From Candidatus Peregrinibacteria bacterium (GTDB taxonomy: Bacteria; Patescibacteriota; Gracilibacteria; UBA1369; PNNO01): a stretch of 54,447 nt of DNA. This document shows, one piece after another, positions 19,595 to 31,458 of this stretch (the stretch's first letter is position 1; each line of letters begins with the position of its first letter). Both the position numbers and the translations under genes were made by a program. The notes beneath the pieces were generated by a model that had not been told where the DNA came from, did not search any database, and saw nothing but the letters and a program-made list of their open reading frames with translations. Location of the stretch: assembly GCA_016928915.1 (NCBI GenBank), contig JAFGJT010000013.1, positions 1 to 54,447 of the forward strand. Reading direction: 5' to 3'.

Positions 19595-20851
19595 ATGTGC
19601 CTTACAATCCCCGCAAAGGTTATTAAAACCAACGCTGATAAAGCTGTGATTTTCCGTGACGGAGTTAAAAAGATTATTGATGCGCGTACCGTGGAAGGTT
19701 TGAAAGTTGGCGACTGGGTTCTTTATATTTCGGATATTGCAATCCAGAAAGTTTCAGCAAAAGATGCTAAAGAAATTTTGGATCTTCTTGAATATACAAA
19801 TAAAACCGATCCTGAAGGGTTAAATCCGGTGTTTATTGAGATAATTAAAAATTCAAAGACACGAAAATTGAATAAGGAGGAAATTGAATTTCTGCTAAAA
19901 ACCAACGGGCGCGAAAAAGAAGCTTTGTTCAGCGAAGCGGATATGATCAGACGAACATATATTAAAGATTTTTTCTGCATTCACGGGATTATTGAATTTT
20001 CAAATTACTGCAAAAATGACTGTTTTTACTGCGGGCTGCGCAAAGAAAACGACAAAATTTTAAGGTACAGAATGGGGGTCGGCGAGATTGTTCGTGCAGC
20101 TGAAAAAGCCTTTAAAAAAGGCTATAAACTAATGGTTCTTCAGTCCGGGGATGATTATTTTTACACCAAAGAAAAACTTGTGGAAATTATAAAAAAGATT
20201 AAGGAAAAGTGCAGGGTTTTTATTTTTATCAGCATCGGAGAAAGGAATTTTGAAACTTACAAAGCTCTGCGCGAAGCCGGGGCTGACGGAGTTTTATTCC
20301 GTTTTGAAACTTCAAACGAAAGTCTTTTTAACAAACTTCATCCGAAAGGAAAAAATTTCAAGAACAGATTCAAAACATTAAAATTTTTAAAAGAATTAAA
20401 ATATTTTATCGCAACCGGATCAATCGTAGGGCTTCCGTATCAGGTTATTTCTGACCTGGCTGTTGACATTATGATTCTGCGCGATATGAATGCGGATATG
20501 ATTTCTTTCGGGCCTTTTGTCCCCTGCCCCAATACTCCTTTTGCGGATAAACAGCCCGGAGATATTGATCTTGCCTTAAAAATGATGTCGATTTTACGCC
20601 TTGAAATGAAAAATACAAAAATTCCCGTTGTTACGGCCCTGGAAACGCTTGACCCCAAAAAAGGCCGAAAACGCGCTATAAAAGCCGGCGCTAACGCACT
20701 TATGTTCAATATTACTCCTAAAAAATATCAGCCGCTTTACGAAATTTATAAACGACGTGATGCATGCGACAGAAAAACATGGGAAAAATACGGGCTGTAT
20801 AATACCGAAGAAAGTTATAAAATGCTTGAGGAGAAACTCAGAGTTAAATAG
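19595..20851 (+). CDS. hydE: HypC-HydE fusion, hydrogenase cofactor maturation
   Basis: Residues 1-70 match HypC/HupF: MCLTIPAKVI with the essential Cys2, then VGDWVLYISDIAIQKV. In [NiFe] maturation HypC carries the Fe(CN)2CO unit with HypD. Residues about 75-418 match HydE, a radical-SAM enzyme of [FeFe] H-cluster assembly. GIIEFSNYCKNDCFYCGLR gives the cluster cysteines C139, C143 and C146; LRYRM, VLQSGDD, FRFETSN, TGSIVGLPYQ and GPFVPCPNTPFA follow the HydE order. The extra C-terminal cysteine cluster of some HydE proteins is absent. A natural join of the two maturation systems is unusual. hydG follows after 27 bases, and a [NiFe] hydrogenase lies 7.4 kb downstream. Confidence 0.9.
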   Translation: MCLTIPAKVIKTNADKAVIFRDGVKKIIDARTVEGLKVGDWVLYISDIAIQKVSAKDAKEILDLLEYTNKTDPEGLNPVFIEIIKNSKTRKLNKEEIEFLLKTNGREKEALFSEADMIRRTYIKDFFCIHGIIEFSNYCKNDCFYCGLRKENDKILRYRMGVGEIVRAAEKAFKKGYKLMVLQSGDDYFYTKEKLVEIIKKIKEKCRVFIFISIGERNFETYKALREAGADGVLFRFETSNESLFNKLHPKGKNFKNRFKTLKFLKELKYFIATGSIVGLPYQVISDLAVDIMILRDMNADMISFGPFVPCPNTPFADKQPGDIDLALKMMSILRLEMKNTKIPVVTALETLDPKKGRKRAIKAGANALMFNITPKKYQPLYEIYKRRDACDRKTWEKYGLYNTEESYKMLEEKLRVK

Positions 20852-20878
20852 CGCAACAATTTTCTTAATAAAATTAAA

Positions 20879-22252
20879 ATGCCTGAAATAAAAGATATAT
20901 TCGATGCTGAAAGAATAAAGAAATTACTTTTATCAACAAAAAATCCTACAAAAAAACGGATTGAAGAAATTCTCGCGAAAGCCGAAAAAATGAAAGGATT
21001 ATCACTGGAAGATGCGGCATCTTTAATAAACGCGCCAAAAAAATATACTGATTTAATGTTTAAAACCGCATGGAAAATTAAAAAAGAAATTTACGGAGAG
21101 AGAATAGTTCTTTTTGCGCCGCTTTATGTTTCAAATTACTGTGTAAACGACTGTGAATACTGTGGATTTCATATACGAAACAAAGAAAAACGTATAAAAC
21201 TTTCCTTAAAACAGGTTGAGCAGCAGACCCGGTTTTTGATTAACATGGGGCATAAAAGGCTTCTTCTGGAATTTGGCGAACATCCCAAAATGTGTCCGAT
21301 CGATTATGTGGTTGATACGATCAAGACTATTTATTCCGTTAAGGAAGGCAACGGAAGCATTAGGAGGGTAAACGTGAATATTGCCGCAACAACTGTTGAG
21401 GATTATAAAAAATTAAAAAAAGCAGGAATAGGCACTTATCAGCTTTTTCAGGAAACTTACCACCAGCCCACTTATGCAAAACTTCACAACGGCCCAAAAG
21501 CTGATTTTGAAAGACAGCTTTTTGCTCATATAAGGGCTTTTAAAGCCGGAATTGATGATGTGGGGCTCGGCGTGCTTTTTGGTCTGTACGACTGGAGGTT
21601 TGACACTTTGGCGCTTCTTTCGCATGCGCAGTATCTGGATAAAACTTTTGGCGTGGGTCCTCATACATTTTCGGTTCCCCGCCTTCAGCCAGCCCCCACC
21701 GTTAAAGAAAAATGGCCGTACGCGGTAAACGAAAACGAACTTTTAAAAATTATCGCGATTTTAAGAATGTCAGTGCCTTATACGGGCATGATTATTTCAA
21801 CAAGAGAACGCCCGAATGTGCGCGAAAAAGCTTTTAAACTCGGGATTTCACAGACCTCGGCCGCCTCATGCACATCTCCCGGCGGGTACGGAAAAAAACG
21901 CACATTAAACCAGTTTCAGATTTCAGACGAAAGGTCTTTGGATAAAGTGATTGAAGGAATTATTGACAAAGGATTATTGCCCAGTTTTTGCACGGCATGT
22001 TATAGAATAGGAAGAACCGGCAAGGATTTTATGGATATCGCTAAACCGGGAGAAATTCACAATTTCTGCAGACCAAATGCGATTCTTACATTAAAAGAAT
22101 ATCTTGAAGATTATGCAAAACCCTTAACAAAAGAAAAAGGACTGCAAATAATCCAAAAATATTTAAAACTCATTCCTTCAAAAGTAATTCAGAAAAAAAC
22201 TGTTGAACGGCTTGCCCGAATAGAACGGGGGCAACGCGACTTGTACTTCTAA
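20879..22252 (+). CDS. hydG: HydG, radical-SAM tyrosine lyase
   Basis: HydG cleaves tyrosine to p-cresol and supplies CO and cyanide on iron for the H-cluster of [FeFe] hydrogenase. The 457 residues keep the SAM cluster motif NYCVNDCEYCGF (C88, C92, C95). They also keep the HydG-specific C-terminal auxiliary-cluster motif C-x2-C-x22-C (C371, C374, C397). LFQETYHQPTYAKLHNGPK and GIDDVGLGVLFGLYDWRF are family segments that separate it from ThiH-like relatives. It lies 27 bases after the hypC-hydE fusion and is probably in the same operon. HydF and HydA, the usual partners, are not in the window. Confidence 0.93.
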   Translation: MPEIKDIFDAERIKKLLLSTKNPTKKRIEEILAKAEKMKGLSLEDAASLINAPKKYTDLMFKTAWKIKKEIYGERIVLFAPLYVSNYCVNDCEYCGFHIRNKEKRIKLSLKQVEQQTRFLINMGHKRLLLEFGEHPKMCPIDYVVDTIKTIYSVKEGNGSIRRVNVNIAATTVEDYKKLKKAGIGTYQLFQETYHQPTYAKLHNGPKADFERQLFAHIRAFKAGIDDVGLGVLFGLYDWRFDTLALLSHAQYLDKTFGVGPHTFSVPRLQPAPTVKEKWPYAVNENELLKIIAILRMSVPYTGMIISTRERPNVREKAFKLGISQTSAASCTSPGGYGKKRTLNQFQISDERSLDKVIEGIIDKGLLPSFCTACYRIGRTGKDFMDIAKPGEIHNFCRPNAILTLKEYLEDYAKPLTKEKGLQIIQKYLKLIPSKVIQKKTVERLARIERGQRDLYF

Positions 22253-28238: not shown

Positions 28239-28267
28239 TTGCGCTTAAGCTCCTCATGATATATGAT
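28239..28267 (+). promoter_or_regulatory. Putative promoter for the hydrogenase genes
   Basis: TTGCGC (28239-28244) and TATGAT (28262-28267) are 17 bases apart. The predicted start near 28274 coincides with the ATG at 28275, so the small-subunit message may be leaderless. The -35 match is only moderate. Confidence 0.4.
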
Positions 28268-28274
28268 TTTCCCG

Positions 28275-28766
28275 ATGGCAGACACACAAAAAAAACTAAA
28301 TATCGGGTGGTTCACTTTTACCTGCTGTGAGGATTCAACGATCATGCTTACGGAAATGCTGAATGATAATTTTTTCACATGGAAAAAGCTGCTTAATTTT
28401 AAGCATTTTAATGTTCTTAAAAGCAAAAATGACATGAGTGATCTTGATGTTGCTTTTGTTGAGGGGGCGATCGCATCCGAGCATGACAAAGAAAAACTTT
28501 TAAAAATCCGCGAAAACGCAAAATATCTAGTTGCTATCGGTTCCTGCGCGGTTACGGGGCTTCCGTCAGGCCACAGAAACAGCTTTGACGATAAATTAAA
28601 AGCTGAAATCGCTCCGTACCTTCTGCAGTATCATCAAAACGAAAAAGTTTATGCGCTGCATGAACTTGTTAAGGTTGACGACAGCGTTCCGGGCTGCCCC
28701 ATGGTTGAAGCTGAATTTTTAAAGGTTGTTGATAAATATTTAAAATTATTCAAAATAATCCCTTAA
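28275..28766 (+). CDS. [NiFe] hydrogenase small subunit, minimal type
   Basis: The 163-residue product is an Oxidored_q6-type electron-transfer subunit of the kind found in group 3 and 4 [NiFe] hydrogenases and in NuoB. The four cysteines for the proximal [4Fe-4S] cluster are visible: an adjacent pair in WFTFTCCEDST (C17, C18), one in AIGSCAVTG and one in VPGCPMVEAEF. There is no twin-arginine signal and no second ferredoxin domain, so the enzyme is cytoplasmic and minimal. An upstream in-frame ATG at 28263 would add four residues, but it lies on the putative -10 box. The large subunit starts 9 bases after the stop. The exact group is not assigned. Confidence 0.88.
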   Translation: MADTQKKLNIGWFTFTCCEDSTIMLTEMLNDNFFTWKKLLNFKHFNVLKSKNDMSDLDVAFVEGAIASEHDKEKLLKIRENAKYLVAIGSCAVTGLPSGHRNSFDDKLKAEIAPYLLQYHQNEKVYALHELVKVDDSVPGCPMVEAEFLKVVDKYLKLFKIIP

Positions 28767-28775
28767 AAAGAAATC

Positions 28776-30077
28776 ATGCATCAGGTTAATCTTTCAATTA
28801 AAAATTTATCAAAAATAGAAGGGCATCTTGATATGGATGTTATAATTGAAGACAACAAAGTTAAGGACGTGCAGTTTAAGATCATGGAAAATAAAAGGTT
28901 TTTTGAAAAAGCAATACTTGGCAAACCTTTTGCCGTGGTGCCTCAGCTGCTTTCGCGCATATGCGGCACGTGCAGCGTGGCGCATGAAATGGCCGCAATT
29001 GAGGCTGTTGAAGATGCGCTTGGATACAAACCTTCCGATCAGACCATTACGCTTAGAAAACTTATGATGTACGGAATGATGATCCGCGATCATGCTCTAC
29101 ATTTGTATATTTTTTCTCTTCCGGACATTTTAAACAAAGACTCAATTCTGGACTTTGATGAAAATAACGAACTCGAGCACCAGCTGCTGCATGACATGTT
29201 TGAAGTAAAAAAAGCCGGCAACTATCTTTCAACCATTTTCGGAGGAAGGGCTGTACATGCACCTTTTGTGAGTATCGGCGGGTTTTTAAAATATCCGGCT
29301 CCCGAAGAAATCCAAAAATCCCGCGACGAACTTTTAAAAATACGCAAAAAAATATTTCTGCTTATGAAAGTGTTTGATGAATGCGAATTTTCACTGGAAC
29401 GTGAAACAAAATTTGTGGCAATGAAGACAAAAGATTACAGCTTTTTAGAGGGCGAAGTTCTGTGTTCCGAAGGCGGATTTTGCGTTCAGGAAAAATATTT
29501 TAGACAGCAGCTAAAGGAGGTTGTTATCCCCTACTCGACCGCTAAAGCGTACCAAATTCTCGGTCAGGAATATATGGTAGGCTCTCTTGCCCGCATGAAC
29601 ATCAACCACGAAGCACTGCATGAAAACACAAAAAAGGACGCTGCAAAATATATTGCCAAATTTCCGTCACACGATATTTATAAAAACAATCTTGCACAGG
29701 CAATAGAAATTCTTCATTCAATAGACCATGCGGTTGAAATTCTGAAAAATTTAAAAATTCAAAATAATCCTGTTAATAAACTTACTCCAAAAGAAGGCGA
29801 AGGCGTAGGTGTAATAGAAGCCCCGCGCGGCACATTGTATCATTATGTGGCTTTGGACAAAGAAGGGCTGGTCACCGACGCTGAAGTTGTTGTACCCACG
29901 GCTCAAAACCAGAACAACATTGAAAACGACATAAGGCATCTTGTTCAGGACAGATTAGACCGGGACAAGGACAAGATGGATAAAGAAAAAGTGAAGTTTG
30001 AAATTGAAAAACTTATACGCGCTTACGACCCCTGCATGAGCTGCGCAACACATTTTCTTGAAATAAACTGGAAATAA
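28776..30077 (+). CDS. [NiFe] hydrogenase large (catalytic) subunit
   Basis: The 433-residue product carries both nickel-iron ligand motifs: RICGTCSVAHEMAA (C63, C66) and DPCMSCATHFL (C420, C423). The N-terminal SKIEGH also fits. Active-site nickel and Fe(CN)2CO binding can therefore be expected. Length and the CATH ending resemble cytoplasmic group 3 enzymes. Only seven residues follow the conserved His426, a much shorter tail than the cleaved extensions of many hydrogenases. Even so, a maturation peptidase gene lies 1 kb downstream. It is co-transcribed with the small subunit; no NAD(P)- or F420-binding subunit is beside it, so a ferredoxin (such as 40196-40390) may be the electron partner. 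Confidence 0.93.
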   Translation: MHQVNLSIKNLSKIEGHLDMDVIIEDNKVKDVQFKIMENKRFFEKAILGKPFAVVPQLLSRICGTCSVAHEMAAIEAVEDALGYKPSDQTITLRKLMMYGMMIRDHALHLYIFSLPDILNKDSILDFDENNELEHQLLHDMFEVKKAGNYLSTIFGGRAVHAPFVSIGGFLKYPAPEEIQKSRDELLKIRKKIFLLMKVFDECEFSLERETKFVAMKTKDYSFLEGEVLCSEGGFCVQEKYFRQQLKEVVIPYSTAKAYQILGQEYMVGSLARMNINHEALHENTKKDAAKYIAKFPSHDIYKNNLAQAIEILHSIDHAVEILKNLKIQNNPVNKLTPKEGEGVGVIEAPRGTLYHYVALDKEGLVTDAEVVVPTAQNQNNIENDIRHLVQDRLDRDKDKMDKEKVKFEIEKLIRAYDPCMSCATHFLEINWK

Positions 30078-30107: not shown

Positions 30108-31079
30108 ATGAATAAAAGTCTTGATTTTCACCTGCAGAATTCAACATATGCGATTTTTCACTCAAATGACAGCAGGTACCAGGATCTATCATTAAACATG
30201 CTTTATGAAGAGCTTAATGCTGCAAGTCTTAATGATGTTATCGAAGACTGCGACGATACAGAAACTCCATATGGCACATGCATTTCACCGTGGGACGCCG
30301 CGAACTGTCTGCTTGATACAGCGCGCACCGTAAAATTTGTAAGAGGGCTTGCGGCCGCAATCAGAAAAAAACGAAAAAAACAATCCGGCAAAAAGGTTTC
30401 AATACTTTATGCGGGCTGCGGACCCTTTGCCACTCTTGCTTTGCCCGTTACAGCGCTGTTCAATCCGAATCAAATCGGCTTTACTGTTCTTGATATACAC
30501 GAAGCCTCAATAAAAAATGCACAACGTATAGTTGAAATAATGAATATAAGCGCATATTTTGATGACTTTGTTTGCCAAAATGCATTAGATTACCCATCAG
30601 CAAACCAAGATAAAAAATTTGATATCATCATTACCGAAACCATGACTGCAGGACTTTTGAATGAACCCCAAGCCGCAATAACAACAGCCCTTTCTGATAT
30701 GCTTGAACCTGACGGCATATTTGTACCGGAACAAATAATTATTGGTGTAAAGCTAAAAGCCGAAAAAATATTAAATCAGCCTGCTATTCCACTTGGCACC
30801 ATTTTTTTATTAACCAAAGATACAAAACCGGACAAATATATTCCTTTACTTAAAGCAAACACAAAAACACCTCCAACTGCTGAAGATGGGCTTGAATATG
30901 GCATAATGCTTACAACTCAAATTAAAATATTCGGACCTCATATATTACAAGAAGGTGAATCGGCAATTACAATGCACGTGCCAATCAAAAAAACATACAA
31001 AAAAGAAGACGGATCACAAATCAGAATAGCATATCCTTTGGGAGGGGGAATAAACGAAGTAAGAGTTAAAGCTTTCTAA
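30108..31079 (+). CDS. SAM-dependent methyltransferase-like protein
   Basis: The 323-residue product has a Rossmann SAM-binding core from about residue 90. Motif I is VSILYAGCGPFATLALPV, an acidic residue ends strand two in FTVLDIHEAS, and KFDIIITETMTAG is the post-motif segment. A beta-rich C-terminal part (about 200-323) recalls the barrel of protein arginine methyltransferases, but the double-E loop is not clear. The substrate is unknown. It starts 30 bases after the hydrogenase large subunit and overlaps the convergent maturation peptidase gene by 14 bases, so it may be carried on the hydrogenase transcript. Whether it modifies the hydrogenase is not shown. Confidence 0.75.
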   Translation: MNKSLDFHLQNSTYAIFHSNDSRYQDLSLNMLYEELNAASLNDVIEDCDDTETPYGTCISPWDAANCLLDTARTVKFVRGLAAAIRKKRKKQSGKKVSILYAGCGPFATLALPVTALFNPNQIGFTVLDIHEASIKNAQRIVEIMNISAYFDDFVCQNALDYPSANQDKKFDIIITETMTAGLLNEPQAAITTALSDMLEPDGIFVPEQIIIGVKLKAEKILNQPAIPLGTIFLLTKDTKPDKYIPLLKANTKTPPTAEDGLEYGIMLTTQIKIFGPHILQEGESAITMHVPIKKTYKKEDGSQIRIAYPLGGGINEVRVKAF

Positions 31080-31458
31080 TTAAATCCGCTGTCATTTTTA
31101 AAATTTGCCCCTCCCGCATATCTGATTTTTGAGGAATTCCGATAATACTGACTTCTTTTAGTTTCCCAAGCTTTTTTAAAAGCTTCATTTCCCAGGCAAT
31201 GTCGAAATCGTGCATTGAAATTCCTTTTTTGTTCACAAACTTATCTATATCGGTGAATATTAAAGGTTCATTTATGCCCTTAACCGTATCAATCAAACAA
31301 AATTCCCCATTTGGTTCATTTGATTCGGGAAAATTTTCAGTCGGGTCAAATTCGATAAAATCAATCAGCGGAAATTCCTTCTTAAGAAATGGCATTAACT
31401 TTAAAGGTATAGAATCCTCATCAACCAGAGCGTTGCCTGCAATAAAAATTGTCCTCAT
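31066..31458 (-). CDS. [NiFe] hydrogenase maturation peptidase (HycI/HybD family)
   Basis: These peptidases recognise nickel in the large subunit and remove its C-terminal tail. The 130-residue product is close to the family size of about 150. It opens with a beta strand and FIAGNALVDEDSIPLKLMP, matching the GNxLxxDE nickel-site motif. It later shows SMHDFDIAWEMKLLKKL, matching the conserved His segment, and ends with IIGIPQKSDMREG. It is on the opposite strand from the hydrogenase genes and overlaps the end of the methyltransferase gene by 14 bases. Its presence is odd beside a large subunit whose tail is only seven residues long; it may cut that short tail or serve another enzyme. Confidence 0.8.
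   Translation of the reverse strand: MRTIFIAGNALVDEDSIPLKLMPFLKKEFPLIDFIEFDPTENFPESNEPNGEFCLIDTVKGINEPLIFTDIDKFVNKKGISMHDFDIAWEMKLLKKLGKLKEVSIIGIPQKSDMREGQILKMTADLIRKL

Follow-up and report, generated by a model that had tools for sequence, protein, structure and literature searches.

By the textbook account, every known [NiFe] hydrogenase depends on the maturation proteins HypA to HypF. A 2025 review deems these six Hyp proteins necessary, counts the origin of the CO ligand under anoxic conditions among the unresolved questions, assigns the iron site of HypCD to His51 of HypC together with Cys41 of HypD, and states that HypC cannot dock to the apo large subunit without its essential Cys2 (PMC12134894). 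In the Hyd pathway of HydE, HydF and HydG, HydG produces a mononuclear Fe(II) bearing cysteine, one CN and two CO derived from two tyrosines, and this product is handed directly to HydE, where it is reduced by adenosylation (PMC12752695). A hypC-like family has also been noted in the context of hyd2, the CPR group 3b-related hydrogenase (Jaffe et al. 2020, PMC7304191).

Here we analyze a stretch of 54,447 nucleotides (the window; contig C17 of genome G000, a Candidatus Peregrinibacteria assembly of 1,127,696 bases in 20 contigs, 95.6% complete) that encodes HypC fused to HydE, followed by HydG. This system shares with the Hyp pathway (HypA–HypF, PMC12134894) a HypC with Cys2, a large subunit with RxCGxC and DPCxxC motifs, a protease, the logic of the gene cassettes and, in several lineages, HypA and HypB; it differs in that the genomes searched hold neither the HypD scaffold nor the HypE/HypF carbamoyl-phosphate route to cyanide, in that its HypC lacks His51 and is joined to HydE, and in that the proposed supplier of CO and CN is HydG. 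With the Hyd pathway (PMC12752695) it has in common a HydG with both clusters, nested within the HydGs of that pathway, and the radical-SAM fold and cysteines of HydE, whereas neither HydF nor HydA was found in the genomes searched, HydE bears HypC and a changed pocket, and the proposed target is a mononuclear iron for a [NiFe] enzyme rather than a di-iron subcluster. The hydrogenase of the window resembles CPR hyd2 in its small subunit of 167 amino acids (mean of 164 in that study) and in having no beta or gamma subunits beside it, but HydE/HydG, the absence of HypDEF and the maturation route are not covered there (PMC7304191). HmdB and the HydE-like enzymes of [Fe] hydrogenase cofactor synthesis are likewise HydE-related radical-SAM proteins outside [FeFe] maturation; however, HmdB-type enzymes carry no HypC domain, and the HmdB model scores 59 versus 321 bits, far below its cut-off. 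The literature searched, limited to open-licence papers, contained no earlier description of a HypC–HydE fusion or of HydEG with a [NiFe] enzyme. Each protein falls in a known family and the defining tests of both the Hyp and Hyd pathways fail; we rate the proposed maturation route as categorically new, built of known parts.

The fusion and its neighbors in the window

The fusion is one unbroken frame of 418 amino acids (19595–20851, forward strand). Its HypC domain (19595–19795, forward strand; residues 1–67) matches Pfam HupF_HypC over residues 1–65 (PF01455, E 1e-15), passes NCBIfam TIGR00074 (52.7 bits, cut-off 48) and keeps Cys2 (MCLTIPAK), the classical His51 being replaced. A linker and the radical-SAM HydE domain follow (19796–20851, forward strand), with CX3CX2C at residues 139–146; residues 87–391 pass the curated cut-off for HydE (TIGR03956, 293 versus 255 bits), the top Foldseek matches of the domain are to T. 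maritima HydE (E 1e-29), and a conserved tail, WEKYGL..SYKMLEEKL, closes the C-terminus. An AlphaFold2 model of the whole protein (pLDDT 82.6, pTM 0.81) predicts a beta-rich HypC part and a barrel for the HydE part. Starting 27 bases downstream is hydG (20879–22252, forward strand), whose family is a tyrosine lyase making CO and CN-. The encoded protein scores 560 bits against TIGR03955 (cut-off 312) and 555 bits against the solved HydG 4wcx, with both its N-terminal CX3CX2C and its C-terminal CX2CX22C intact; the two cluster motifs are kept in all 11 full copies of the partner HydG, the C-terminal motif of one copy being interrupted by a short insert.

Six kilobases from the fusion, which lies outside the hydrogenase operon, are the two subunits of a [NiFe] hydrogenase. 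The small subunit (28263–28766, forward strand; PF01058) is truncated to 167 amino acids and of CPR hyd2 type, with orthologs in genomes G002, G004, G006 and G068; the large subunit (28776–30077, forward strand; PF00374, 128 bits) carries RICGTC and DPCMSC, finds its best full-length matches among group 3b alpha subunits and has a 7-residue tail beyond the His of DPCxxCxxH. Four metal-binding cysteines in the large subunit and a truncated small subunit together satisfy the test for the hyd2 type. These analyses uphold an earlier note, made from the letters of the window alone, in its reading of a HypC–HydE fusion (a single ORF with both domains above curated family cut-offs), of HydG 27 bases behind it and of a [NiFe] hydrogenase at 28.3–30.1 kb, where both subunits and both metal-binding motifs were found.

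The CCEGC of group 3b is replaced by tandem cysteines (TCCEDS) in the small subunit, whose C-terminal half, with the further Fe-S clusters, is missing; the TCCEDS motif suggests that binding of the proximal cluster may follow the pattern of complex I. Next to the hydrogenase lies a diverged maturation protease of the HybD/HycI fold (31066–31458, reverse strand). Sequence models match it weakly, and the test for the HybD fold is met by Foldseek: its AlphaFold2 model (pLDDT 86) matches HybD 5ija (E 5e-7, prob 1.00) and further 1cfz and 2i8l. Synteny agrees, the protease adjoining the hydrogenase in five of five related genomes. A methyltransferase-like protein (30108–31079, forward strand; weak Methyltransf matches) also adjoins the large subunit; a neighbor 32% identical to it stands beside the large subunit in G006, and none was found there in G002 or G004. 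It is probably peripheral, and we assign it no role.

Spread and genomic company of the fusion

A survey for the same fusion, as the earlier note had proposed, recovered it in 14 genomes of Peregrinibacteria, Moranbacteria, Myxococcota ("Deltaproteobacteria"), Planctomycetota and Pseudomonadota; over the fusion length, the copies in genomes of several phyla are 46–69% identical. The scan of 84,980 species (Peregrinibacteria, one Moranbacterium, five Deltaproteobacteria MAGs that are Myxococcota by NCBI ranks, three Planctomycetota and one proteobacterium) used two peptide patterns only, MCLTIPAK and YKMLEEK, so the number of fusion genomes is a lower bound. Among 99 genomes around that of the window the fusion occurs in four (G000, G002, G004 and G006), all of one family, at 67–69% identity; the G004 copy is split between two contigs that share an identical overlap. 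In the phylum of G100 (395 genomes) it is found only in G100, G106, G107 and G108, the remaining HydE matches being stand-alone. The fusion HydEs form a single clade (support 100/100) spanning five phyla and the partner HydGs a single clade (97/94) nested inside HydG, which indicates that the pair travelled together.

All 14 searchable fusion genomes encode a [NiFe] large subunit, and all 14 encode HydG above its family cut-off. HypD was found in none of them, nor in any of the 21 genomes searched with PF01924 or the 99 relatives of the window genome. The [FeFe] hydrogenase HydA (PF02906), HydF, HypE (TIGR02124) and HypF (TIGR00143) were likewise missing above cut-off from the 14 fusion genomes and from all 18 genomes searched, the T. 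maritima positive control matching in the HydA search. Fourteen named control genomes gave HypD, HypE, HypF and the [NiFe] subunit above cut-off in four genomes each; HypD/E/F are thus detected as often as the [NiFe] subunit, and the searches work. HydF-like matches (E 1e-11 to 1e-31) occur in every genome, and we rejected them as ordinary Era/Der-type GTPases covering only model residues 9–170 and scoring at most 108 versus 326 bits. In the window genome, tblastn with single E. coli HypA, B, D, E and F sequences gave no match. The earlier note had seen neither HydA nor HydF in the window; this absence extends to the whole 1.13 Mb genome, where HypD, HypE and HypF were not found either. The pattern that it had named as support, a [NiFe] enzyme without hydA/hydF and without hypDEF, holds in 14 of 14 searchable fusion genomes, and searches for the two outcomes that would have refuted it, a complete hyp set or hydA together with hydF, turned up neither.

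Co-occurrence is also seen on a finer scale. Within the family of the window genome, the fusion, HydG and the [NiFe] enzyme are present together in four genomes and jointly absent in three (G001, G003 and G005). All four fusion genomes among the 99 relatives fall within the five that have a genuine [NiFe] subunit, an overlap with a chance of about 1e-6 if the genomes were independent, which they are not. A large-subunit match in G062 was dismissed as a complex-I/Ehr-like protein.

Gene order places the pair beside hydrogenase or maturation genes in several lineages: in G006 a single continuous run comprises fusion, HydG and the small and large subunits, and the Moranbacterium has fusion, HydG, small subunit, a peptidase-like gene and large subunit, plus a HypA-like gene. 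Two Planctomycetota loci (L098 and L102) read fusion, HydG, HypA, HypB, small, large; the Myxococcota locus L097 reads [NiFeSe] small, large, cytochrome b-like, protease, HypA, HypB, fusion, HydG, with the same maturation cassette at L101; L103, the proteobacterium order, reads fusion, HydG, protease, HypA, HypB; and L105 has a four-subunit group 3b-like hydrogenase and its protease, with the fusion oriented divergently from them. HypA and HypB stand beside the fusion in G100, G101, G104, G105 and G106. From these orders we infer that the fusion and hydG occupy the position of hypCDEF where a cassette also contains hypA, hypB and the protease.

Several Myxococcota genomes contain second HydG-like genes, which we do not count as part of the system; those examined adjoin thiG (one also thiC) and form a separate clade. 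Such thiG-side paralogs at L210, L211 and L213 (Myxococcota) score above the TIGR03955 cut-off and have the C-terminal CX2CX22C. The cut-off alone is not specific, since ThiH-like paralogs pass it too.

Residues kept and changed, and a proposed route

Alignment with E. coli HypC and T. kodakarensis HypC (2z1c/3vyr) revealed that the HypC part of every fusion keeps Cys2 and lacks His51: the region reads GDWVIVHTGFA or GQWVLVHVGFA in classical HypC versus GDWVLYASDMA-like in the fusions. Because His51 is assigned to the HypCD iron site, its loss is as expected if HypD is gone. The fusion HydEs keep the radical-SAM cysteines, R180, M224, T269 and M291 (T. maritima numbering), and in 12 of 12 fusions carry R54H, T134F, R155G and G195A, positions at which 28 of 28 stand-alone HydEs have R, T, R and G. 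Two of these residues, R155 and T134, presumably line the HydE pocket that holds the cysteine-bound iron unit and contact the substrate.

We consider it likely that HydG, the fused HydE and the tethered HypC build the Fe-CO-CN unit of the [NiFe] site and replace HypDEF, which would constitute a third maturation route. The genomic case for this hybrid route is strong and is a matter of observation: the fusion itself, its conservation, its co-occurrences, the absences, the gene order, and the residues kept and changed. By contrast, the chemistry at each step, the direction in which the unit moves and Fe(CN)2CO as the product are inferred, with no biochemistry behind them. The replacement of HypDEF suggested in the earlier note gains support from co-occurrence, absences and cassette position, while its handover of Fe-CO-CN to a [NiFe] site through HypC remains inference only.

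In the proposed sequence, HydG would cleave tyrosine and yield a mononuclear iron carrying CO and cyanide, which the HydE part would receive directly from HydG and would free or remodel by a SAM radical reaction that releases the iron from cysteine. Cys2 of the HypC part, on the same polypeptide, would then take over the unit; this part would, like HypC in general, dock onto the apo large subunit, and the iron group would move to the RxCGxC cysteines. Nickel would be supplied by HypA/HypB where present and a HybD-type protease would complete the enzyme. HypD, HypE and HypF (the scaffold and the carbamoyl-phosphate route to cyanide) and HydF (the di-iron scaffold) would be dispensable.

The [NiFe] site needs Fe(CN)2(CO), and the known HydG product is Fe(CO)2(CN). 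A change of ligands must therefore be assumed, which counts against the route. Two tyrosines would provide two CO and two CN, so that Fe(CN)2CO could be reached if one CO were lost and both CN kept; alternatively, the final site might be Fe(CO)2(CN). Only tentatively, as a conjecture that we think may well be wrong, do we go further and suggest that all diatomic ligands come from tyrosine, that HydE works on iron held by Cys2 of HypC instead of free cysteine, and that there is either a new ligand exchange to Fe(CN)2CO or an unprecedented Fe(CO)2(CN) site.

Both HypD and HydG are missing from four Patescibacteria genomes (G068, G109, G110 and G111) that encode a [NiFe] enzyme. A missing HypD alone hence does not imply the HydEG route in Patescibacteria, and its weight is reduced within that group, not for the cassettes of Planctomycetota and Myxococcota. 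Either some Patescibacteria use another source or genes are missing there. G109–G111 (L109:5098-9081, L110:4446-8494, L108:1900-3787 and L201) have a group 3b-like [NiFe] enzyme with HypA, and a stand-alone HypC without His51 that neighbors an EamA transporter and a DUF6390 protein; searches there returned no HypD, no HydG, and no HypE or HypF above cut-off. G068, of a different family, has the minimal hydrogenase and protease of the window type (L198:6045-8235; large subunit 57% identical), and in this 90% complete genome no fusion, HydG or HypD was found.

How far do other explanations account for these data? That chance or faulty assembly brought hypC and hydE together (the earlier note had named a sequencing artefact) is an explanation to which we give practically no credence: nothing that we found supports it, and the full-length fusion is kept in independent genomes across several phyla, at 46–69% identity, as one clade with conserved linker-side and C-terminal features, which rules it out. 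The note's simpler option, an [FeFe] enzyme and Hyp proteins elsewhere in the genome, is not borne out, as HydA, HydF and HypDEF were not found above cut-off in any of the 14 fusion genomes, and from the whole-genome searches we reject an [FeFe] hydrogenase or HydF elsewhere. Maturation could still be conventional if HypD/E/F or HydA/HydF lay in the missing parts of draft genomes; all fusion genomes are metagenome-assembled, and 10 of the 14 have no completeness figure. We judge this very improbable, since five separate genes would have to be missing at once in 14 of 14 genomes, including G000 (95.6% complete) and G004 (97% complete), and since intact hypA–hypB–protease cassettes in four lineages hold no hypD, hypE or hypF.

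The fusion and HydG might instead serve something else, for example an unknown organometallic cofactor, with the [NiFe] iron group arising in some unknown HypDEF-free way. Such a way may exist in Patescibacteria, given the [NiFe] enzymes of G068 and G109–G111, and in the window the fusion and hydrogenase loci are 6 kb apart. Yet the fusion itself contains a HypC domain, G006 has a single continuous gene run, Planctomycetota and Myxococcota have cassettes with HypA, HypB, protease and hydrogenase, and presence and absence go together in the family of the window genome; another target is thus improbable, if less so than a gap in the drafts. A different doubt concerns chemistry: the route may run as proposed with a HydE part that merely shuttles or scaffolds the HydG product, as a stand-in for HypD without radical chemistry. 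The class-specific loss of R54, T134 and R155, invariant in stand-alone HydE, speaks for this reading, which we nonetheless find doubtful, because in 12 of 12 fusions the radical-SAM CX3CX2C is invariant, as are many other residues of HydE.

If maturation by HydG, the fused HydE and HypC is true, the two hydrogenase classes can share a source of Fe-CO-CN, tyrosine is a defined CO source for some [NiFe] enzymes, and the system suggests how evolution can swap one maturation pathway for another. The fusion, hydG, two subunits and a protease would also form a compact gene set for producing [NiFe] enzymes.

Large-subunit ends and a putative selenoenzyme

In the large subunits of L095, L098, L102, L201, L109 and L110, DPCxxCxxH is the very C-terminus; as no extension follows it, a protease cut would be unneeded. 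In the large-subunit gene at L097 (L097:5699-7335), an in-frame TGA takes the position of the first Cys codon of DPCxxC (DP-TGA-MAC). Judging from this codon, the hydrogenase beside the HypA–HypB–fusion–HydG cassette is probably of the selenocysteine [NiFeSe] type.
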